Shown: positions 25,486-36,449, counted from the first letter of the stretch. The stretch is DNA of 64,000 nt from Pseudoleptotrichia goodfellowii (GCF_007990505.1 NZ_AP019822.1:1364001-1428000); one strand, 5' to 3'. The notes: generated by a model not told the origin, from the sequence alone. Numbers and translations are program-made.

Positions 25486-25514
25486 TTGAAAAATACGTTT
25501 ATATATGTTAACAT
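25486..25514 (+). promoter_or_regulatory. Promoter of the fluoride-riboswitch transcript
   Basis: TTGAAA (25486-25491), a 17-base spacer, and TAACAT (25509-25514). The start would be close to 25521, right at the aptamer. Confidence 0.5.
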
Positions 25515-25521
25515 TATTTCA

Positions 25522-25617
25522 CGGGAATGATGTCTCCCGAGGCAAGTGCCTAAACCGCTTTATTTGAGCTGATGACTTCTGCATATTTTTGTAATGCGGA
25601 AAACATCACTTTTTTTA
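25522..25617 (+). promoter_or_regulatory. Fluoride (crcB) riboswitch with transcription-terminator expression platform
   Basis: The aptamer (25522-25584) has the fluoride-riboswitch landmarks in order. These are a GGGAATGATGTCTCCC hairpin, then AAACCGC, then GAGCTGATGACTTCTGC, the same plan as published crcB-motif RNAs. It contains an extra small AGGC/GCCT hairpin. The 3' aptamer strand GATGACTTCTGCAT (25571-25584) can alternatively pair with ATGCGGAAAACATC (25594-25607), with mismatches. That forms a terminator followed by eight T (25610-25617). Fluoride binding should hold the aptamer, block this hairpin and turn the gene on. Known targets of this class include fluoride channels and cation/proton antiporters. 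Confidence 0.88.
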
Positions 25618-25637
25618 TTTATGAAAGGATAGATTTT

Positions 25638-26816
25638 ATGTTATTCAGTCTTACTCTTATTTTTCTTTCGGGACTCATATTGGGAAGTATTTTTAACAGA
25701 TTGAAACTTCCTCAACTATTAGGAATGTTACTTACAGGGATAATTTTAGGACCTTATGTTTTGAACTTGCTTGATCCGAAAATTCTGACAATTTCTGCCG
25801 ATTTAAGACAAATATCTTTAATTATAATACTTACACGTGCAGGATTAAATCTCGATATAAACGATTTGAAGAAAGTCGGTCGTCCTGCAATTTTGATGTG
25901 TTTTGTTCCTGCCACTCTGGAAATTTTGGGAATGATACTTTTTGCTCCTAAATTTTTAGGATTGAATTTACTCGATTCGATTATTTTAGGAACTGTCATT
26001 GCTGCAGTTTCTCCTGCTGTTGTTGTTCCGAAAATGTTAAAACTTATGGAAGAAAACTACGGTACTGACAAAAGTATTCCCCAGCTTATTATGGCGGGAG
26101 CTTCTGTGGACGATGTCTATGTCATAGTTCTTTTTACTTCTTTCACGGGACTTGCTTCCAAAGGAACTTTTTCTTTCCTTGATTTTGTTAAAATACCTAC
26201 TTCCATTTTATTCGGTATATCGGGAGGATTTATTTGCGGCATTTTAGCAGTTTATCTTTTTAAAAAACTGCATATTCGTGACAGTGTCAAAGTTATTATT
26301 ATTTTATGTATTTCTTTTATGCTCGTTACTTTTGAGCATTCTTTAAAAGGAATTATCGGTTTTTCAGGCTTACTCGCAATAATGAGTATCGGAATAGCGA
26401 TTCAAAAGAAGAAACCCGGTCTTTCAAAAAGACTTTCGGTAAAATATTCTAAACTGTGGATCGGAGCAGAGATTATACTATTCGTTCTTGTAGGTGCTGC
26501 TGTAAATATAAAATATGCTTTATTTTCAGCAATTCCGTCTATTATTCTGATTTTTCTTGTTTTGATTTTTAGAATGATCGGTGTATTTATATGCTTACTT
26601 GGAACTTCTTTATCATTTAAAGAACGGATTTTTTGCATGATTGCTTATTGTCCGAAAGCCACTGTTCAAGCTGCAATAGGTTCTATTCCTTTAGCAATGG
26701 GACTTTCTTCAGGAAATACCATACTTACTGTTGCAGTGTTGTCTATTTTGATAACTGCTCCTTTAGGGGCCTTTGCTATTGATATGACTTACAAAAAACT
26801 GCTTTTAAAAAGTTAA
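25638..26816 (+). CDS. Cation/proton antiporter (CPA2-like), fluoride-riboswitch controlled
   Basis: This integral membrane antiporter (392 aa) of the monovalent cation:proton antiporter family has about 12-13 helices. The segments LKLPQLLGMLLTGIILGPYVL and DDVYVIVLFTSFTGLAS carry the conserved Asp residues expected at the ion site, and KATVQAAIGSIPLAMG is in the C-terminal part. The longest frame begins at 25572 within the riboswitch. ATG 25638 with GAAAGGAT is the real start. Control by a fluoride riboswitch suggests a role in fluoride resistance, either by direct export or by pH/ion compensation. The mechanism is not shown by the sequence. Confidence 0.9.
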   Translation: MLFSLTLIFLSGLILGSIFNRLKLPQLLGMLLTGIILGPYVLNLLDPKILTISADLRQISLIIILTRAGLNLDINDLKKVGRPAILMCFVPATLEILGMILFAPKFLGLNLLDSIILGTVIAAVSPAVVVPKMLKLMEENYGTDKSIPQLIMAGASVDDVYVIVLFTSFTGLASKGTFSFLDFVKIPTSILFGISGGFICGILAVYLFKKLHIRDSVKVIIILCISFMLVTFEHSLKGIIGFSGLLAIMSIGIAIQKKKPGLSKRLSVKYSKLWIGAEIILFVLVGAAVNIKYALFSAIPSIILIFLVLIFRMIGVFICLLGTSLSFKERIFCMIAYCPKATVQAAIGSIPLAMGLSSGNTILTVAVLSILITAPLGAFAIDMTYKKLLLKS

Positions 26817-26878: not shown

Positions 26879-26899
26879 TTGAGGGTTAAAAACCCTCAT
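26879..26899. terminator. Bidirectional terminator between the antiporter and the KAS III operon
   Basis: GAGGGTT (26881-26887) pairs with AACCCTC (26891-26897) around AAA. AT-rich flanks on both sides suit the two convergent transcripts. Confidence 0.65.
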
Positions 26900-26909
26900 T
26901 TATTATTTT

Positions 26910-27839
26910 TTATAATTTTATAAGTAATATATTTGTTGTCAGTCCCGCCGCAGTACCTATAAGCAATACAGTATCTCCCGTTTTCAGCATTCCATTTTCC
27001 AATCCGTAACACAACGTAAACGGTACCGAAGCCGATACCATATTTCCGTATTCGGCAACGATATTTATATATTTTCCTTCGGAAATACCCAGTTTTTTCA
27101 TAACTGAAGGCATTGCAGAGCTTGCCTGATGAGGTACTGTCATATCAATATCCGCAATATCTATATTATTTTCTTTTAGAAACTCTGTCAGCATTTCAGG
27201 TATCTTCTTTTTTGATAGAGATAAAATAATTTTTCCTTTCATATCAAACATAAATTCTTCTTTTGTTTCTTCAGAATAATTTTCAGGATGAAGATTTGCA
27301 AGTCCTCCACGAATTTCAGTAGAATGAGCTCCCTCTGACCATGTTTTCTGGACAGCAGAAATGATACCTTTATTTTCTTCAGTTTTTTCTATAATAATTG
27401 CTGCCGCACCGTCACTGAATAATTCGTAGCTTTCTTTCTGATTCGGATTCAATCCCATAGAAGCCGAGTCGCTCGAAACAATTAAAACTCTTTTATATCT
27501 TCCCGCTTCTATCATATAAGACATTATATCCAATGAACTTATAAAACTTGTACAAGTTGTATTAATATCCAATGCAGGAATATCAGTTCCTTTAGCAATA
27601 CTTTCATGAATAAGTGCAGCTGTACAGGGTATAGGTTGTACTCCTACGGCACTTGCCGAAACAATACAATCTACATCATTTATGGATAAGTCCGCATTTT
27701 CCAATGCCTTTTTACAGGCATCTACAGCTAAATTAAACTGACTTTCTTCTCCGGTCAGTCTATAACGAATCTGTTCTCCGAATTTCACAGTTTTTTTAGG
27801 TAAACTTACTCCATAACCCCTTATTCTTATTTTTCTCAT
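26910..27839 (-). CDS. 3-oxoacyl-ACP synthase III-like condensing enzyme (KAS III)
   Basis: This 309 aa thiolase-fold enzyme has the full FabH-type triad: Cys96 in NTTCTSF, His237 in VPHQASSAMP and Asn266 in EYGNMVSAS. It would join an acyl starter to malonyl-ACP or to a second acyl chain. It is the last gene of an eight-gene overlapping operon and overlaps the adenylate-forming enzyme by four bases. FabH for housekeeping fatty-acid synthesis normally sits with fabD/acpP/fabF, which are absent here. A dedicated secondary role is therefore more likely, comparable to OleA in the ole cluster or to KAS III enzymes of lipid natural products. Confidence 0.9.
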   Translation of the reverse strand: MRKIRIRGYGVSLPKKTVKFGEQIRYRLTGEESQFNLAVDACKKALENADLSINDVDCIVSASAVGVQPIPCTAALIHESIAKGTDIPALDINTTCTSFISSLDIMSYMIEAGRYKRVLIVSSDSASMGLNPNQKESYELFSDGAAAIIIEKTEENKGIISAVQKTWSEGAHSTEIRGGLANLHPENYSEETKEEFMFDMKGKIILSLSKKKIPEMLTEFLKENNIDIADIDMTVPHQASSAMPSVMKKLGISEGKYINIVAEYGNMVSASVPFTLCYGLENGMLKTGDTVLLIGTAAGLTTNILLIKL

Positions 27840-29122
27840 TTTCTACCTTCTTTTTTCATTTTTTGACATATTCTTTTCAATTTTATTTTATTATCCGTAT
27901 TGTATTCAACGAATTTTATTCTTATATTTTCTACATTTAAAGAATCAAACAGCTTTTCAAATTCTCTTAATATCTGCTCTTTTTGATTTTCATTAATCTC
28001 AGGAACTGCTATTTCAAGGCGGTCATATTCAGTCTGAAATACCTGATATTCCCTTATTCCTTCTGAAAATAACATACATCTTCTTATAAAATCGGGAAAA
28101 GCAGTTACAATTTGATTTTTTTTATTGTAAAATTCAAAAATATCATCAGAACGTCCTTCAATTTTTTCTATCCTTTGAAATACAGATCCGCATTTACAAG
28201 GCTTGTTATTTTCAACTAAAATATCATTTAATCTGTATTTTACAAAAGGCTGACTGGTCCTTTTAAAGTCGGTTATTATAGGATAAAATCTTTTTTCGTC
28301 AATATATTCTTTTTCAAATTTTATTATATCTTCATTCAGATGAAGCGATCCGCATGGACAGGTACAGGCAAGAAATCCTTCTGTTGCCTGATAAATCTGG
28401 TGTATTATTTTATTCCCGAAACATTCCGAAATAAATTCTTCATCTTTTTTCTCCAATATTTCCGCAACAGAAATTATTTTTTTCGGACAGATTTTCAACA
28501 TTCCGTGTTTTTTTCTTTCTCCCAATAAAATCAGCATTGAAGCGGGAGCTATTAAAATAGTCGGATTCAGTTTATTCAATCTATCAATATGCTCATTAAC
28601 GCTTTTAAATGTGTCAAAATATTCCAAACGGATAATAAAAGAGTTTACTGTTTTATACAGTTCATTGTCAGCTCTTAGAAAAAATGCAATTCTGTGACCG
28701 AATAATTTTCCTCGGGGCAGCATTTTAGCAAGAATTGTTCCCGCCCAAACAGCCTGTTCACTATCAGTAGTTACAAAAATCCCTCTATGTCCCGAAGTTC
28801 CTGAAGACAGACCTACAGAAAATTTTTCATATTTTTTCCCGAAATCTCTTGTTCTTTCACTCTCCAATGCGATATTCATTGCCTCTTCTTTTTTTATTCC
28901 CAAAGTGTTTAACTCATCAAAATTTTCCATCACAAATTTTTTGTCGGTTATAAAATCGCCTTTAATATTGTTTTTTCTGAAATAAGGAGATTTATTTTTT
29001 AAATAATTTAAATGTTTTTTTATTTCTTTATTCTGATATTTTTCAAGTTCTTTTCTTGAATGAAACTTTTTTATCCAACGGACCTGAATAAAAGTCAATA
29101 ACGTCTTAACTATCTTTTTCAT
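27836..29122 (-). CDS. Adenylate-forming enzyme, F390-synthetase/PaaK-like
   Basis: This 428 aa member of the ANL (acyl-CoA synthetase) superfamily is nearest to coenzyme F390 synthetase-related and phenylacetate-CoA ligase proteins. The nucleotide loop is SSGTSGHRG (106-114). The A5-type motif reads YQATEGFLACTCPCG, with clustered cysteines. The hinge region is IEGRSDDIF, and a second Cys pair lies in NKPCKCGS. It probably activates a carboxylic acid as an acyl-AMP. It overlaps the MBL hydrolase by 17 bases upstream and KAS III by four downstream. A distinct clade of this family is repeatedly found next to KAS III genes (family knowledge); the natural substrate is unknown. Confidence 0.82.
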   Translation of the reverse strand: MKKIVKTLLTFIQVRWIKKFHSRKELEKYQNKEIKKHLNYLKNKSPYFRKNNIKGDFITDKKFVMENFDELNTLGIKKEEAMNIALESERTRDFGKKYEKFSVGLSSGTSGHRGIFVTTDSEQAVWAGTILAKMLPRGKLFGHRIAFFLRADNELYKTVNSFIIRLEYFDTFKSVNEHIDRLNKLNPTILIAPASMLILLGERKKHGMLKICPKKIISVAEILEKKDEEFISECFGNKIIHQIYQATEGFLACTCPCGSLHLNEDIIKFEKEYIDEKRFYPIITDFKRTSQPFVKYRLNDILVENNKPCKCGSVFQRIEKIEGRSDDIFEFYNKKNQIVTAFPDFIRRCMLFSEGIREYQVFQTEYDRLEIAVPEINENQKEQILREFEKLFDSLNVENIRIKFVEYNTDNKIKLKRICQKMKKEGRK

Positions 29123-29918
29123 TTAAAATACCTCTTATCCTTTCGGGCATATCATGGCTGACAATTACGTCAATGTTATTTTTCATAAGTTTTTTCAATA
29201 TTTCGACACCTTTTTTATATTCGGAAAAATTATTTTGAATTAATCTCGGTATAAACTTTATTTTGTCAGTCAATTCCAACAAATCTATACCCCAACATAC
29301 ATCGGCAGCTAAAAACAGGTTTTTTTCGGGTATAAAAAGACATCCCTGTCCTTTTGCATGACCATCTATCCGACTTAAAAACAAACTTCCGTCATTAAAT
29401 AAATCATGACTTTTGATATAAGGAAAAGCCGAATTATGAGAGTTAATTTCTATTATTTTCAATCTTTCTTCAAAATTTTCAGGCAGTATTTCTTTAAAAA
29501 TCAGAGATTTGAAAGAACTCTTTTTATATTCCTGAAAATATTCGTCTGTAATTATAATTTGAGCATCAGGAAAAAATTCCGCTCCTCCTATATGATCAGG
29601 ATGTAAATGGGATAAAATAATATAATTTATTTTTTCTGTTCCGATCCCCTCTTTTTTCAACTGTTCATTTATTATATCCTCTTTTTTTAAAGTAACAGGA
29701 TTTAATCCTGTATATATCTTGTATTCCAGCTTATTTTCAAAGATTTTCATGCTGTAACCTGTATCGTATAATATATATCCTCTTGTTTTATGTTTTATCA
29801 AAAATACTCCCGCATGAAAATTACGTTTTCCGCTGCATACCCCTTTAAATATTTTTTGCATATCATTAGTACAATATCCGCATGAAAAATAATCAATTTT
29901 TTCGATTGTTTTCGACAT
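29106..29918 (-). CDS. Metallo-beta-lactamase-fold hydrolase, AHL-lactonase-like
   Basis: This 270 aa cytosolic di-zinc hydrolase has the motif H104-x-H106-x-D108-H109 (SHLHPDHIGG), a later IDGHAKGQG histidine, ADVCWG and a C-terminal VSHDMP. The overall plan, with an N-terminal GVFLIKHKTRGYILYDTGYS, is that of N-acyl-homoserine lactonase/AttM-type enzymes. These open lactones or hydrolyse thioesters. In this operon it could act on an acyl thioester or a beta-lactone intermediate. It overlaps the OleD-like gene by 26 bases. The lactonase label describes fold relatedness; quorum quenching is not implied. Confidence 0.85.
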   Translation of the reverse strand: MSKTIEKIDYFSCGYCTNDMQKIFKGVCSGKRNFHAGVFLIKHKTRGYILYDTGYSMKIFENKLEYKIYTGLNPVTLKKEDIINEQLKKEGIGTEKINYIILSHLHPDHIGGAEFFPDAQIIITDEYFQEYKKSSFKSLIFKEILPENFEERLKIIEINSHNSAFPYIKSHDLFNDGSLFLSRIDGHAKGQGCLFIPEKNLFLAADVCWGIDLLELTDKIKFIPRLIQNNFSEYKKGVEILKKLMKNNIDVIVSHDMPERIRGILNEKDS

Positions 29919-30966
29919 ATTTTTTTACTCCTTCGGCTATGGTCAGCTTCGGCTTGTAATTCAGTTCTTTTTCAGCTTTTTGAATATTCAGTGTCTGACT
30001 GTATCTCATAAGATAAAGAGTATACATTGTAATAGGAGGTTCTTTTGTTATACCGAATAAATGATATATTTTTTCTATAACATTTACAAAAAACTTGACT
30101 GTATTATAGTTTTTCCTAATAAAATGAGGTTTTTCACCGAATTCTTTGAAAAAAAGTTCCAAAATATTTTTAAATGCCATCGGTTCGTTATTTGTTATAT
30201 TATAGATCTGCCCTGAAGAATTTTCACTTTCCAAAGCCAATCTTATTGCAAACGCCGCATTTTCAACACATGTTACGTCTACCATCTGTTTTCCGTCATT
30301 AAATAAAGGAATACCCTTTGCCCTATTCAATTTTAAAAGTCTCGGAATAACACTCGTATCTCCTACTCCGAAAAGCCCTCTCGGACGAATTATGACAGAA
30401 GGTATGTCAGCATATTCTTTTATTTTTTTCTCAGCCATTATTTTACTTTTTATATAAAAATTCAGATTGTTTTCTTCAGGTGCTTCTTCTTCACGGACAT
30501 TCACCTGATCCTTAGGTTCCGCATAAATACTCGGCGAAGATATAAAAATAAGTTTTTTTATTTTATATATTCTGCATATTTCAAGGATATTTTCTGTTCC
30601 TTTGACATTGGAATTATAAAAATCCTGCCATTTTCCCCATACAGTCGACAGCCCTCCCGCGTGAATAACTGCTGAAATTTCCTCCGTATGGTATTTTCGG
30701 GAAACTTTCAAGTCTGATTTTGTTTGATTTTCGTGATTTAAGTCTGCATTAATCTTCGATTCCGGACTTTTCTGACTATTTATTACTTTTATTATATCTT
30801 CTTTTTCTGTAAAATCTCCTTTAAAAAACCGTACATTCTCATTTTCAAGACTTTTTCCGATTTTCTCATTTCTTCCGAAAGCTACGACTTTATAGTTATT
30901 TTCGACTAATTCGTCAATAATATATTTCCCCAGAAATCCTGTAGCTCCTGTTACTAAAACTTTCAT
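29893..30966 (-). CDS. NAD(P)-dependent extended SDR, OleD/3-beta-HSD-like reductase
   Basis: This 357 aa extended short-chain dehydrogenase has the nucleotide loop GATGFLG (7-13) and the catalytic Tyr171-x-x-x-Lys175 in FYIKSK. The stretch VWGKWQDFYNSNVKGTENILEIC and the following SSPSIYAEP closely follow OleD, which reduces 2-alkyl-3-ketoacids to hydroxy acids in long-chain olefin/beta-lactone synthesis. An insertion of about 35 residues (60-95) is not typical. It overlaps the glycosyltransferase gene by four bases (ATGA). The substrate is presumed to be the beta-keto product of the KAS III in the same operon. Confidence 0.82.
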   Translation of the reverse strand: MKVLVTGATGFLGKYIIDELVENNYKVVAFGRNEKIGKSLENENVRFFKGDFTEKEDIIKVINSQKSPESKINADLNHENQTKSDLKVSRKYHTEEISAVIHAGGLSTVWGKWQDFYNSNVKGTENILEICRIYKIKKLIFISSPSIYAEPKDQVNVREEEAPEENNLNFYIKSKIMAEKKIKEYADIPSVIIRPRGLFGVGDTSVIPRLLKLNRAKGIPLFNDGKQMVDVTCVENAAFAIRLALESENSSGQIYNITNNEPMAFKNILELFFKEFGEKPHFIRKNYNTVKFFVNVIEKIYHLFGITKEPPITMYTLYLMRYSQTLNIQKAEKELNYKPKLTIAEGVKKYVENNRKN

Positions 30967-32243
30967 TTATTATTTTCCCTGCCTTTCAGCAATCTTTCTA
31001 TTTCCTTTTCCAAAATATCAGCTGACGGATAATTATTAAAACTGTTATGAATTTTTTCAAGATTTTTCCATTCTTTCCTGTTCAGCATATCTTGAAAAGC
31101 TTTATTTATGGAATCTTCCGATTTCAAATCTGCAACAAAAGCTATATCCGCTATTCTTGCCCGAACTGCATAATCAAACTGATCATAATCATGGGGAATT
31201 ATAACTGAAGGCTTATTATGCTTAATCACTTTATACATAATTCCCGCACCTCCGTGATGTATAACATAATCTGCACGGGGCAATGCCGTTTCATAATCTA
31301 TATATTTATAGACATATACATTTTCAGATATTTTTTTTACTTCTTCATCCTTTTTTGAATAATCTCCCGAAGATACTATAAAACAAATATCAGGATAAGA
31401 TTTCCCCAAATTTTTCGCTATTTTAATCATTCTTTCTTTTGCCCATAAAACATGAGTTCCGTTTGACAAAAATACAGTCTTTTTAAATTTTGATGTATCT
31501 GTAAAAGTATACTCTTTTTTATCAAAAGAGGGCGAACAGGGACCTATCCATATAAATCTTTCAGGAAAATCATCTCTAAATTCAAGCTCTTTCATTCCTA
31601 CTCCTAGAATCGAGTAGGGAGAATATATGTTTTCTTCTCCGTTTTCATTATAAAGTTTAAAATTCAAAGTTTTTAATTCTTTTGACACTGCAAGACAAAC
31701 TATTCTTTTAAAACTTCTTATTACAAATCTGCCTATACTGTCTCTTATTTTATAAAATATATTATTTTTAGGATACCAGCCCCCTAAATATGAAGGAGTG
31801 GTACTTTTACTTTCCAGAGCAAAAGGTGTAGGCATGGAAGTTATCCACGGTATTTTCAGATTATTACAGGCTATTCCCGCAGGAATTGCTACAAAGTCTG
31901 CTATTACAATATCAGTTCCTCTCTTTTTAAATTCCTCTTCCAGTTCTTTTATAATTATCGGAATAATTTTCATATTTTTTTTGAACTGTTTATACAAAAT
32001 AGTCGCATCGGTTTTTTCAGGAGTATTTGCAATATTTTCAAAAGCATCGGGATAATCTTCCAGTACAACTTTACAGCTTATTCCCAGTGATTCTGCAACT
32101 TCCTTTTTCTGTATTCCTGTATAGACACGAATGTCATACTTTTTGTTATTTAAAAGAGGAATTATCATTTCCAGTAAAGGATATAAATGTCCGCTGAAAG
32201 GCGGTGCAACAACATCAACTTTTATCTTTTTGGAGGGTGTCAT
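30963..32243 (-). CDS. UGT/MGT-type glycosyltransferase (GT1-like)
   Basis: This GT-B-fold enzyme (426 aa) resembles macrolide and lipid UDP-glycosyltransferases. The N-terminal domain begins VDVVAPPFSGHLYPLLEMI with the acceptor-side His. The donor-binding motif HHGGAGIMYKVI is near residue 330, followed by PHDYDQFDYAVRARI, equivalent to the P-x-x-x-DQ site of the family. It would attach a sugar to a hydroxyl of the small molecule or lipid built by the neighbouring enzymes. It overlaps the alpha/beta-hydrolase-like gene by 29 bases. Confidence 0.85.
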   Translation of the reverse strand: MTPSKKIKVDVVAPPFSGHLYPLLEMIIPLLNNKKYDIRVYTGIQKKEVAESLGISCKVVLEDYPDAFENIANTPEKTDATILYKQFKKNMKIIPIIIKELEEEFKKRGTDIVIADFVAIPAGIACNNLKIPWITSMPTPFALESKSTTPSYLGGWYPKNNIFYKIRDSIGRFVIRSFKRIVCLAVSKELKTLNFKLYNENGEENIYSPYSILGVGMKELEFRDDFPERFIWIGPCSPSFDKKEYTFTDTSKFKKTVFLSNGTHVLWAKERMIKIAKNLGKSYPDICFIVSSGDYSKKDEEVKKISENVYVYKYIDYETALPRADYVIHHGGAGIMYKVIKHNKPSVIIPHDYDQFDYAVRARIADIAFVADLKSEDSINKAFQDMLNRKEWKNLEKIHNSFNNYPSADILEKEIERLLKGRENNK

Positions 32244-32847
32244 AAATAAACTCCTTTATTTCTTTGTTTTTCAAATAATCAAAATGTTTGCAGTCAACTC
32301 TCACATCACATTTATGATTATCGAGAATTTTAGTATACATATCTTTTTTACCTTTGAAAATTATCGCTTTTTCAATTTTTTCACTTCCCTGTGCGACAGG
32401 TCCCAAGCAAAATATTCTAAAATTCTTTTCTTTTATATTTCGATCTTTTAAAACACAATTTAATAAATTTAAACCTGAACTTTGAGTTACAATAATCGCA
32501 TTTTCCAATTCAAATAAAGGACTTAAGTGCCTTTTTATTTCTTTTTGAAAATTTATATTATATAAGGTATGCCAATAATAAACTATATTGGATATTGAAG
32601 CTTTTAATATATGGACATCATCAAAATCATTATGTTTAAAATCTTCATTATAAGGAAAGTTTGAATTTACAACATTATATCCGAATTTCTCAAAAATATT
32701 TAAAAACTCTTTCTGAATCTGAGATAAAGCGGCATTTTTATAATTACTGCTCCCACTTAACAATATTACGGATCTTTCTTTTTTTATAAGTGTTTTTTCA
32801 CTTTCCAGACATTGCAGCTTTTTAAGATATTCATTAAAATTATTCAT
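32215..32847 (-). CDS. Small alpha/beta-hydrolase-like protein
   Basis: I do not recognise a named family, but the layout fits an alpha/beta hydrolase (210 aa). A first strand VILLSGSSNYKNAALSQIQ precedes a helix. A nucleophile-elbow-like turn TQSSGLNLLNCVL lies near residue 125. A later strand carries GKKDMYTKI (possible acid), and HFDYL (possible base) is close to the C-terminus. The Ser-Asp-His assignment is inference. The longest frame starts at 32871; ATG 32847 with GGGAG is chosen and overlaps the upstream glycosyltransferase by eight bases. Thioesterase, esterase or acyltransferase activity would all suit the operon. Confidence 0.6.
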   Translation of the reverse strand: MNNFNEYLKKLQCLESEKTLIKKERSVILLSGSSNYKNAALSQIQKEFLNIFEKFGYNVVNSNFPYNEDFKHNDFDDVHILKASISNIVYYWHTLYNINFQKEIKRHLSPLFELENAIIVTQSSGLNLLNCVLKDRNIKEKNFRIFCLGPVAQGSEKIEKAIIFKGKKDMYTKILDNHKCDVRVDCKHFDYLKNKEIKEFIYDTLQKDKS

Positions 32848-33988
32848 AGTGTATTCTCCCGTCGGAAACACGGATTTTCTTATTTCTCCATTTTATTACC
32901 GGAGGAGTGATTAAAGTGTATATAAAAACAGGTATCAGGATTAAATCACTTATTATTTCATATAAAATTACATTCATATTTTCTTTCTTTTTCAAAAGAC
33001 TGTATCTGAAAAGGTACAAAATAAAGGCTTTTAATACAAAATATCCGAAAATAACAAATATAAACTTTATCCCTAAAAATAAGCTCATTATAAGCACTAT
33101 GCCCGGTAATAAAGACGGCAAAAGTATAAATACAAAAAATTTCATTGAAAAAGCTTTTTTTATATAGATTTTTGTAAATAAAAACCATCTTTTCATAAGA
33201 AGTATATAGTTTAAACTGTTTTTTACGGTAGTCCGTACATTACAAAAAACAGTAGTTTGAATAATTTTTACTTTTTTCTCCGATAAAAAAGTTGCCAATG
33301 CCAAATCGTCGCATAATTCATATTTTATTTCGTCAAAAGTATTATATTTTCTAAAAAGCTCTGTTTTTGCCATGTAAAACATTCCGTTCAATGTTCTGCT
33401 TTCTTTTAAATATGCCATAGGAAAATAAGTCAAAAAAGAATTTCCGTTTACAAATGCTGCAATTAATTTTGAAAATAATCCTTTAATACCGTAATTATAA
33501 GGTATTCCCGTTGCTATCCATTCTTCTTTTCTTTTTTCATAAAGAGCAAATTCATTTATTCTTTTAATGTCCATAACAGTGTCGTCGTCTAAAATAATCG
33601 TATATTTTGTCTTGACTTTTTCAATAATCTGACTTATTTTAAAGATTTTCGGATTTATTTCCTGAGGTACATCGTCCATTTGAAAAATTTCTGTTCTTTG
33701 GAAAAAATCTTTATTTCCCAAAATTTTTTCCGCTGTTTCCAGAGCGACTCTGTCACTTTTATCAATAAGCCATATAAACCTCATTTTTTCAGTGTTTTTC
33801 AAATTTTCCGTCAAATCTTCTTCAAGTCTCAAATCTCCCGAAAGAATAGGCTGAATAACAGTGTAGTTTTCTTCATTAATATAACTTTTGGGTTGATTTT
33901 CTATATTTTTGAAATATTTATATGCAAAAAATAATTTCAAAACCAATAAAAATATTGATGTAAAAAGAAAGAAATAATAAATAAACAT
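32840..33988 (-). CDS. Membrane glycosyltransferase of GT2/GT21 type (ceramide-glucosyltransferase-like)
   Basis: This 382 aa protein has an N-terminal membrane helix (1-22). A GT-A catalytic domain follows with D134-D135-D136 (ILDDDTV), the ELCDDLALA motif near residue 222, and a MKRW motif near 265 that matches (Q/R)-x-x-R-W. Three or more C-terminal helices follow (about 280-365). This is the plan of ceramide glucosyltransferase and HpnI-type GT21 enzymes, which glycosylate lipids at the membrane. It lies one base from the SDR stop and overlaps the hydrolase gene by eight. A lipid acceptor is therefore likely. Confidence 0.83.
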   Translation of the reverse strand: MFIYYFFLFTSIFLLVLKLFFAYKYFKNIENQPKSYINEENYTVIQPILSGDLRLEEDLTENLKNTEKMRFIWLIDKSDRVALETAEKILGNKDFFQRTEIFQMDDVPQEINPKIFKISQIIEKVKTKYTIILDDDTVMDIKRINEFALYEKRKEEWIATGIPYNYGIKGLFSKLIAAFVNGNSFLTYFPMAYLKESRTLNGMFYMAKTELFRKYNTFDEIKYELCDDLALATFLSEKKVKIIQTTVFCNVRTTVKNSLNYILLMKRWFLFTKIYIKKAFSMKFFVFILLPSLLPGIVLIMSLFLGIKFIFVIFGYFVLKAFILYLFRYSLLKKKENMNVILYEIISDLILIPVFIYTLITPPVIKWRNKKIRVSDGRIHYE

Positions 33989-33989
33989 T

Positions 33990-34757
33990 TCAAACTCCTT
34001 TTCTTAAAAATTTTTCAACTATTTTCAGTTGAAAAGAAATCGGAAGCACTCTCATTATATATGAAAAAATTTTATTTCCGAAACCTATAACAGTAAATCT
34101 TTTTTTCATGTCAAAAGCCTGCATTATAGCTTTTGCAACCTTTGAAACTTTCATTTCGTATTTTTTCCACGAAGAAAATTTTTCTCTTGTATCTTTTTCA
34201 AAAAAATCAGTATTTACAGGTCCAGGACATACACTTAATACTCTTATATTATTATTTTTCATGCTTATTTCCTTATCCAAAGCCAAAGAATAATAAAGAA
34301 GCGAAACTTTGGACACACTGTACACGTTAAGATAAGGATTTGGATATAACGAGGCTGTAGAACATACGTTTATTATTGTTCCGTATTTTTTAACCATAAA
34401 CTTTTTTATAAAAATTTTACTTAAAATCATCGGAGCAACAAAGTTTACATTAATCATTCTTTTTTCATCTTCCAAAGATAGACTTTCATAATCTCCCATT
34501 TTTCCTGTTCCTGCACAATTTATAAGTACATCCGCATCATAATTTCCTATTATTTTTTCAATATTCTCGGTATTATTTAAGTCATATTGAATTACAGTGG
34601 AGTTAATCTCATATTTACTTAAAATCTCTTTTTGAACATCCTCCAGTTTTTCCAATGTTCTTCCACATAAAAGTAAATCATACTTTCTTTCTGCAAATAA
34701 ATTTGCAAGTTCTTTTCCTATTCCCGATCCGGCTCCTGTAATGAGTACTGTAGACAT
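33990..34757 (-). CDS. Classical short-chain dehydrogenase/reductase
   Basis: This 255 aa NAD(P)-dependent oxidoreductase has the cofactor loop TGAGSGIG (7-14), the NCAG motif (80-83), Ser133/136 and the catalytic pair Tyr146-x-x-x-Lys150 in YSVSK. The C-terminal end (IMRVLPISFQLKIVEKFLRKG) is hydrophobic and may touch the membrane, as in lipid-modifying SDRs. It is the first gene of the overlapping eight-gene set. It follows the uracil-glycosylase-like gene by 12 bases, so the operon may begin even earlier. Confidence 0.88.
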   Translation of the reverse strand: MSTVLITGAGSGIGKELANLFAERKYDLLLCGRTLEKLEDVQKEILSKYEINSTVIQYDLNNTENIEKIIGNYDADVLINCAGTGKMGDYESLSLEDEKRMINVNFVAPMILSKIFIKKFMVKKYGTIINVCSTASLYPNPYLNVYSVSKVSLLYYSLALDKEISMKNNNIRVLSVCPGPVNTDFFEKDTREKFSSWKKYEMKVSKVAKAIMQAFDMKKRFTVIGFGNKIFSYIMRVLPISFQLKIVEKFLRKGV

Positions 34758-34769
34758 AAAATCTCCTTT

Positions 34770-36449
34770 TTAAAAAAGTCTTCCTGTATTTTCAGTATCT
34801 TCTACGACTTTTTCAGGTTTTATTTCAAATCCTGTCCAGTTTATAATATTTTTTGTTTTTTCAAAAGATTTTCCGTTCATAAAATCTTTTTCATTGGATA
34901 GATTTCCCGATATAGCAGGATGATTGTGCTTTATAATTTCCCCCGACAATATATTTTTTTCAAATATTTCGGCGTCTTTTCCCCATAAGAAATACACTAT
35001 ATTGGGATTTTTTGCGGAAATATATTCGAGCAAATCCCTTGTGAAAGGGTCCCAGAATTTATGATGCTCTCCCGCTTTCCCGACAATCGTTGTAAGAGCG
35101 GCACTGACAAGAAGAACTCCTTGCTCTTTCCATGATTTTATAAGTTTGTTGGGCGGCAATATCAAAAACTTTTTATTTTCGATTTCTTCTCTGATTTTAC
35201 TTATATCTTCAGATTTTCCCGTGTAAGTTTTGTAAATTAACTTAACTATATTTTTCAGTGATGTATTTATTTCAGGATCATCCCACGAAGATTTATTTAC
35301 TTCAAAAGAAAGTCCTGTTGCTACTCCTTCCTGAAAATAAGGATCTTTTCCTATCAGACACACTTTTCTCGAAGAAATCGAATCGGAAAATACTTTAAAT
35401 ATGTTTTCTCTTGATGGAGTATAGTTTATCTTTTTTATATCCATTTCTTTTATAAAATTATCTATTTTTATAACTCTGTCCAACGTAAAAAAATCATAAT
35501 AATCACTATGAATATTATATTCTTCCAAAAACTTTTCTCTTAACGGTGTATTTTTACTGTCATTTTCTTCATCGATAATTTTTAAAGTTACTATTTTATT
35601 ATCTGCACTTAAAATAAAAATCTGATCTTCAATATAACATATTTTTATAATTTCATTTTTAAAAACACTTTGTGTTTTCAATATTTTAAATTCCCAATCG
35701 GTTATAATCAAATCACCGTTTCCCGTACCGATAAAATAATTTCCGTTATTCTTCTCAATATATGTTATTCTCGAATCAGCTATTTTTATGGAATTATACA
35801 GCTCTTTTTCGAGTATATTCCATATTTCTATTTCTCCTGTTGCAGTTCCCGCAATATACTCCAAGTCGGAAATTTTTGCATATATATGATTATTTTCGGT
35901 TTTTATTTCAAATATTTTTTCAAGTTTACTGTCAAAAATGTTGATTATATTTGTCTGGCTGTGAAGCTCTCTGTATTTTAAAATAACATTTTCACCGCTC
36001 GTAAATAATTTATAATTTCCCCTTTGTCTGCTTTCTTTCTCAGAAATTTCAGCTTGATTAAGTTCCAAGCTGTTCGAATCATAAGAATACAATATATCAT
36101 TTTCAATATAAATTATTTTTCCGCCTGTTGTAAAATTTATAAACTCTATTAATTTTTCCGAATCAAAAACAGGTTCAACTATTTTTTTCTTTGAACTGTC
36201 GCATTTATAAACTTTTCCCGTTCCGGTAGAAACAAAAAATGTACTTGAAACAAATAACTGATTCTTCTCTTTAATATATTTTATTATTTCACAATTCTTA
36301 ACTTTTCCGCTTATTTCTTTTTCTATTTTACCATTTTTGAAAAATACAAGTTTTTCTCCTGTCATGATTATCCGTTCATTTACAGGATCTACTCCGAAAT
36401 CTTTTATTCCGCTTCTATGATATATACTGTCTTCTAAAATTATATTCAT
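34770..36449 (-). CDS. Beta-propeller-like domain fused to a divergent uracil-DNA-glycosylase domain
   Basis: The first about 300 residues of this 559 aa protein are beta-rich with WD-like repeats, for example YIAGTATGEIEIWNI and YFIGTGNGDLIITDW. Residues about 305-545 are a family-1 uracil-DNA glycosylase. The water-activating loop reads GKDPYFQEGVATGLSF, so catalytic Asp369 and Tyr371 are kept, but the usual His after Tyr is Phe372. The uracil-specificity Asn in LLLN is replaced by Ser449 (LLVSAAL). The Leu-loop motif is HNHPAIS, with His510 kept. The changes suggest an altered base preference or a non-enzymatic role. It sits between cspA and the lipid operon with the same direction. Confidence 0.82.
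   Translation of the reverse strand: MNIILEDSIYHRSGIKDFGVDPVNERIIMTGEKLVFFKNGKIEKEISGKVKNCEIIKYIKEKNQLFVSSTFFVSTGTGKVYKCDSSKKKIVEPVFDSEKLIEFINFTTGGKIIYIENDILYSYDSNSLELNQAEISEKESRQRGNYKLFTSGENVILKYRELHSQTNIINIFDSKLEKIFEIKTENNHIYAKISDLEYIAGTATGEIEIWNILEKELYNSIKIADSRITYIEKNNGNYFIGTGNGDLIITDWEFKILKTQSVFKNEIIKICYIEDQIFILSADNKIVTLKIIDEENDSKNTPLREKFLEEYNIHSDYYDFFTLDRVIKIDNFIKEMDIKKINYTPSRENIFKVFSDSISSRKVCLIGKDPYFQEGVATGLSFEVNKSSWDDPEINTSLKNIVKLIYKTYTGKSEDISKIREEIENKKFLILPPNKLIKSWKEQGVLLVSAALTTIVGKAGEHHKFWDPFTRDLLEYISAKNPNIVYFLWGKDAEIFEKNILSGEIIKHNHPAISGNLSNEKDFMNGKSFEKTKNIINWTGFEIKPEKVVEDTENTGRLF

Follow-up and report, generated by a model that had tools for sequence, protein, structure and literature searches.

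In the pqsABCDE pathway, a ligase, KAS III-type enzymes and an MBL hydrolase work within a single pathway, and PqsE acts as a thioesterase. In housekeeping FabH, Trp32 packs on CoA. In the ole pathway, a glutamate of OleA is reported to be essential for Claisen (head-to-head) condensation (PMC7064751). Here we consider an eight-gene operon of Pseudoleptotrichia goodfellowii, which a sequence-only reading had likened to oleABCD and for which it had proposed a glycolipid or a glycosylated beta-hydroxy or beta-lactone fatty acid as product.

The operon lies within a window of 64 kb, the whole stretch of DNA that was analysed. The host genome is a single contig of 2.29 Mb, and its relatives are fusobacteria. 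Eight intact ORFs occupy positions 26910-34757 on the minus strand, as the sequence-only reading had placed them, and follow one another with transcription in the order SDR, GT21, AB, UGT, OLED, MBL, ADEN and KAS III (Table 1). When AB is started at the ATG at 32847, the junctions from SDR to KAS III measure +1, -8, -29, -4, -26, -17 and -4 bases, and the overlaps of 4-29 bases and the one gap of 1 base claimed for the operon hold; from the GTG at 32871 the GT21/AB junction would be -32 instead of -8. The ATG (Met9, in frame) is invariant in ten homologues, and it is this codon rather than the upstream GTG that has a clear ribosome-binding site, GGGAG, before it. The ORF starts are preceded by purine-rich stretches resembling ribosome-binding sites. 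The sequence thus supports a biosynthetic unit of eight genes that appear to be co-transcribed. It had also been said that no other fatty-acid-synthesis gene is nearby, and profiles for ACP, FabD and FabF indeed gave no further match anywhere in the window.

Table 1. Features of the operon, listed in the direction of transcription (positions are those of the window).
Feature	Position	Strand	Description
SDR	33990..34757	-	Classical short-chain dehydrogenase; Y146xxxK150; Pfam adh_short 2e-40; second reductase of the eight-gene version
GT21	32840..33988	-	Membrane glycosyltransferase of ceramide-glucosyltransferase/HpnI type; Pfam Glyco_transf_21 3.8e-17
AB	32215..32847	-	Small alpha/beta-hydrolase-like protein, 210 aa from ATG 32847; ORF listing starts at GTG 32871
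UGT	30963..32243	-	Soluble GT1/GT28-type glycosyltransferase, MGT/EryCIII-like; Pfam EryCIII-like_C 2.8e-9; TIGR01426 MGT 1.5e-20
OLED (core)	29893..30966	-	OleD-like/3beta-HSD-like extended SDR reductase; OleD models 174 bits, cut-off 580
MBL (core)	29106..29918	-	Predicted dizinc metallo-beta-lactamase-fold hydrolase, lactonase type
ADEN (core)	27836..29122	-	PaaK/F390-type adenylate-forming enzyme, family TIGR02304; 605 bits, cut-off 252
KAS III (core)	26910..27839	-	PRK07204-like clade; Cys96-His237-Asn266; Ile70 where OleA has Glu; without the FabH Trp32 loop
Terminator-like hairpin	26880..26898	scored on both strands	8-bp stem; directly after KAS III

The eight proteins differ in how closely they can be assigned. 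SDR is syntenic in fusobacteria and Enterococcus, and GT21 has a weak match to HpnI and a DDD motif at 134. AB has no family match in Pfam or NCBIfam. The triad proposed for it, Ser131/132-Asp177-His196 when residues are counted from the GTG, is invariant, and an AlphaFold model built from only four sequences (pLDDT 74, pTM 0.76) has as its best Foldseek matches minimal alpha/beta-hydrolase lipases, weakly (E about 6e-4, TM about 0.46). The fold match and the invariant Ser, Asp and His lend support to the earlier description of AB as a small alpha/beta-hydrolase-like protein. The window OLED carries an insertion of about 30 aa that is absent from its relatives. In MBL, all seven putative metal ligands (H104, H106, D108, H109, H187, D206 and H255) are invariant in 16 of 16 sequences; against solved structures, the best PDB matches of its profile are AHL lactonases and 4-pyridoxolactonase. 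MBL therefore has the dizinc site of the AHL lactonase family, but it does not reach the AttM equivalog model (68 bits against 390). ADEN passes the cut-off of the F390 synthetase-related family and conserves the SSGTSG phosphate loop, the Y-x-x-TEG region and a C-terminal lysine, Lys414. The window KAS does not reach the PRK07204 cut-off (313 bits against 402), yet it falls in the same clade as the KAS of another locus (L123) that scores 543 bits.

Four of these genes, encoding the KAS III, the OleD-like reductase, the lactonase-type MBL hydrolase and the TIGR02304 ligase, form a core that recurs across genomes. With the ligase alone as query over genome contigs no relatives were found, and an alignment-based profile was needed; it gave at least 567 relatives, of which the best 80 were kept. 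Loci were judged if they had at least 3.5 kb on either side of the ligase, and KAS, OLED and MBL were required on the same strand within 6 kb. Among the 70 TIGR02304 loci with such room, which come from several phyla, the core is complete in 64, or in 67 if three natural fusions of OLED with MBL are counted. Since the loci were picked by ligase similarity, this rate holds for that ligase clade. The fusions, in three clostridial loci (L129, L134, L139), account for three of the six exceptions, and loss of MBL from these loci was rejected on finding its gene joined to OLED. In a fourth exception (L061) the MBL scores 49 bits where the limit is 50. Where GC-rich loci seemed to lack part of the core, some cases are an effect of the ORF overlap rule and disappear in a six-frame search. 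Only the ligase copy on a Pseudomonas amygdali plasmid stands alone; lower-similarity plasmid matches in E. coli, Paracoccus and Shinella also carry the core. A transposon list for P. syringae names a "coenzyme F390 synthetase" (PMC9823363), by its name a candidate for this family. The fusions suggest that the reductase and the hydrolase may act in consecutive steps. Chance neighbourhood was rejected as an explanation, the core being kept in 64 of 70 loci and the order of all eight genes in other fusobacterial genera as well as in Enterococcus; the conserved co-occurrence sought by a gene-neighbourhood check is thus present.

Around the core, the architecture varies with the lineage. Eight genes in identical order are found in four fusobacterial loci (L039-L041, L043) and in two Enterococcus species (L064, L081). 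Other fusobacterial loci are variants, with GT21 and AB damaged (L042), without UGT (L045, L046) or without SDR, GT21 and AB (L044). Most streptococci and several anaerobes have UGT with the core. The bacilli have KAS-ATPgrasp-OLED-MBL-ADEN plus a protein of about 383 aa. In E. coli, KAS-OLED-MBL-ADEN is followed by tailoring genes of lipid type, for a PAP2 phosphatase, a fatty-acid-hydroxylase-family protein and a fatty-acid desaturase, and the locus lies between narI and tRNA-Tyr/purU. In six loci of Lachnospiraceae, Erysipelotrichaceae and others (L096, L098, L100, L101, L104, L108) the core is followed by an ACP gene, and some ACP-linked loci add acetyl-CoA carboxylase subunits, FabD and FabF, which ties the core to ACP-based chain building. 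A GT1-like gene adjoins 54 of the 101 cassette loci. In many carriers, among them bacilli, Paracoccus and E. coli, the core lacks a neighbouring glycosyltransferase gene, so glycosylation falls outside the core function.

The carriers include oral streptococci, enterococci, gut anaerobes, bacilli and E. coli, and presence is patchy. The TIGR02304 cut-off is passed in 14 of 98 Fusobacteriota genomes, 51 of the 197 Streptococcus genomes sampled are carriers, and the E. coli form occurs in 674 of 5426 complete genomes (12%, about one in eight). In the class of one Lachnospiraceae carrier the count is one genome in 291, namely the genome on which the search was centred. The window KAS clusters in the KAS tree with sequences from fusobacteria, Enterococcus and Streptococcus (98/92); a second set of fusobacterial copies (L047-L050) makes up a clade of its own (100/98), closer to the bacilli. 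Two fusobacterial clades in the tree suggest that the cassette may have entered fusobacteria by at least two horizontal transfers.

The KAS tree resolves three clades, OleA (99/96), FabH (98/96) and cassette KAS (98/97). The FabH clade leaves aside one row named as Fab (L192_fab), which is a Bacillus cassette KAS, so that the clade is not mixed; of the rows named OleA, L169 is a clear OleA, and L172 (112 bits against 285) and L173 are OleA-like only. As the sequence-only reading had reported, the Cys96-His237-Asn266 triad of the window KAS is intact, and none of the 94 cassette KAS departs from it. The window KAS groups outside the FabH clade and scores 181 bits on TIGR00747 (FabH), where the cut-off is 292, so it is distinct from housekeeping FabH. 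A spare FabH was rejected on the separate clade. The FabH of the host genome is encoded elsewhere, and 14 of 15 cassette genomes also have a FabH over the family cut-off. The Trp32 loop is missing from 72 of the 94 cassette KAS, the window's included, and Trp is present in 16 of 16 FabH; from this difference, the acyl donor of the KAS may not be a CoA ester.

Taken together, we give a probability of about one half to the reading of the operon as a small pathway of fatty-acyl biosynthesis, in which four enzymes form a fixed core, the decoration is specific to the lineage and, in the window's lineage, the product is a glycolipid. The KAS III would condense an acyl primer with malonyl-ACP, OLED would reduce the 3-oxo group, and MBL would release or open the reduced product by thioester or lactone hydrolysis. 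ADEN would adenylate a carboxylate, either that of the primer or that of the 3-hydroxy acid after its release, so that it can be loaded or transferred; the enzyme could thus act at the start (loading the primer) or at the end (transferring the product), and both positions are kept. SDR, GT21, AB and the GT1 enzyme would further reduce, acylate or deacylate, and glycosylate, giving a glycolipid in the window's lineage. This scheme agrees with the enzyme types and the missing OleA base, as well as with the fusions and the linkage to ACP, FabD and FabF. Substrates, step order, the glycolipid nature and the biological role are inferred from the genes, and the best reading of the core product is a 3-oxo or 3-hydroxy acyl compound that two transferases would glycosylate in the window's lineage. 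The presence of two glycosyltransferases, one of ceramide-glucosyltransferase/HpnI type, suggests a glycolipid there. The glycosylated acyl product first proposed is plausible, though its beta-lactone form is not indicated.

With hydrolases swapped, an ole/beta-lactone-type pathway would run from head-to-head condensation of two acyl chains by the KAS through OleD-type reduction to a beta-lactone closed by the ligase and opened by MBL. The enzyme types (KAS III, OleD-like reductase, AMP-forming enzyme, hydrolase) are alike in outline, and the MBL is of lactonase type. However, the position of the OleA catalytic Glu117, essential for head-to-head condensation (PMC7064751), holds Ile or Leu in 94 of 94 cassette KAS and Glu in seven of seven proteins of ole or oleD-linked clusters. 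This favours condensation that depends on malonyl over the non-decarboxylative kind, and the ACP/FabD/FabF linkage fits malonyl chemistry too; OleA-type condensation was rejected on these residues. The reductase likewise lies outside the compact OleD clade (100/100), scoring 174 bits against 580. ADEN has no significant match among the ORFs of ole clusters (best BLAST E = 0.1), the ligase being of TIGR02304 rather than OleC type, and the core hydrolase, where ole clusters have OleB, is of the MBL fold. In trees with OleA, FabH and OleD, then, the expected separation of the KAS from FabH is found, but neither KAS nor OLED groups with the ole proteins. The proposed kinship with oleABCD is not supported, on the same grounds; a beta-lactone is not indicated where the ole-type features are missing, and an ole-type pathway is unlikely. 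With KAS, OLED and ADEN set apart from FabH and the ole proteins, the unit is, on these comparisons, not a duplicate of FabH, nor is it an ole pathway.

A pathway resembling that of PQS would have the PaaK-type ligase activate an aryl primer, the KAS III add malonyl units and MBL serve as thioesterase. It draws on the same three enzyme types, and the missing Trp32 loop fits an unusual donor; aryl acids are frequent substrates of PaaK-type ligases, so that an aromatic primer may stand in place of a fatty one, which counts against the fatty-acyl scheme. Against an aromatic product, the fatty-acid hydroxylase and desaturase of E. coli and the GT21/HpnI-type transferase favour lipids, and the MBL profile matches lactonases, with PqsE not among the PDB matches listed. 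By this analogy an aromatic route is a tentative possibility, on the doubtful side. A glycolipid of rhamnolipid type, with AB acting like RhlA on 3-hydroxyacyl-ACP, the GT1 enzyme like RhlB and the core supplying the hydroxyacyl chain, would suit the adjacency of AB to the EryCIII-type transferase gene; since streptococci and many anaerobes have GT1 and the core without AB, this analogy is decidedly unlikely. That the operon is a loose set of housekeeping-like genes with a spare FabH as its KAS has in its favour that KAS III and SDR are common families. It is contradicted by the separate KAS clade, the co-occurrence across phyla and the gene fusions, and is very improbable.

The fatty-acyl pathway with its fixed core remains the preferred reading. 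Besides fusobacteria, enterococci and bacilli, the conserved biosynthetic core occurs in oral streptococci and in 12% of complete E. coli genomes, and no description of its product was found. The open-access papers searched describe no pathway with this gene set, in keeping with what had been supposed, and the available text of open-access papers naming an "F390 synthetase" describes the cluster in none of them. We put at about even odds that the four-gene core defines an undescribed, horizontally spread class of KAS III-initiated clusters, whose shared acyl scaffold is modified in each lineage. Such a class would span human oral and gut bacteria and extraintestinal-type E. coli, with glycosylation, desaturation/hydroxylation or ATP-grasp ligation according to lineage. 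Were the product a lipid or a signal resembling one, an entire class of small molecules associated with hosts would have been overlooked. Some carriers have well-developed genetics, so the core is directly testable.

We file the unit as a variant of KAS III-initiated biosynthesis. PRK07204 and TIGR02304 (NCBIfam) supply family names for two core proteins, names that imply no pathway. With FabH, the cassette KAS shares the Cys-His-Asn triad, the lack of the OleA glutamate and, in some relatives, the linkage to ACP synthesis, but it forms its own clade, has a QPIPC motif and mostly lacks the Trp32 loop, and cassette genomes keep their FabH. With oleABCD and beta-lactone pathways, the unit shares the clustering of a KAS III-type enzyme and an OleD-like reductase with an adenylate-forming enzyme and a hydrolase; it differs in lacking the OleA glutamate, in having a PaaK-type ligase for OleC and an MBL for OleB, and in a reductase outside the OleD clade. 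With pqsABCDE, it shares a ligase, a KAS III-type enzyme and an MBL hydrolase, to which the cassette operon adds a reductase and glycosyltransferases.

A fluoride riboswitch lies upstream of a gene of the Na+/H+-exchanger family and overlaps its listed start, so that the true start of this gene is probably the in-frame Met23; the gene probably encodes a fluoride exporter. Located 12 bases upstream of the SDR gene is a gene fusing an N-terminal WD40-like propeller to a uracil-DNA glycosylase domain. Its same-genus counterpart (69% identity) also adjoins the operon, and in other genera the gene is not kept there.

One genome among the fusobacteria has an operon with damaged genes for GT21 and AB (small alpha/beta-hydrolase-like), while UGT and all four core genes are intact. 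The bacillus version of the cassette is followed in most carriers by a protein of ~383 aa that has no Pfam match. In three Lachnospiraceae/Clostridium-type loci, the OleD-like reductase and MBL hydrolase are naturally fused. The window reductase has a ~30-residue insertion ahead of its 'VIHAGG' strand, absent from same-genus relatives.

No paper describing the E. coli cassette was found in the open-access library searched. In strain NRG 857C it lies between narI and the tRNA-Tyr pair, and 674 of 5426 complete E. coli genomes have matches to it.

Coordinates of features in the window and in related loci (L)
Feature	Location	Strand	Remark
Fluoride riboswitch RF01734	window 25514-25588	+	47 bits
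Na+/H+-exchanger-family gene	window 25572-26816		downstream of riboswitch
OleD-like reductase	window 29893-30966	-	
Propeller-glycosylase fusion	window 34770-36449	-	
Same-genus counterpart	L039 3537-5219		
Damaged GT21 and AB	L042 5611-7255		
~383-aa protein	L123 11311-12462		
Reductase-hydrolase fusion	L129 7939-9960		
Reductase-hydrolase fusion	L134 8038-9966		
Reductase-hydrolase fusion	L139 7757-9889		
Core cassette plus genes for PAP2, fatty-acid hydroxylase and desaturase	L143 3001-9882		E. coli NRG 857C chromosome
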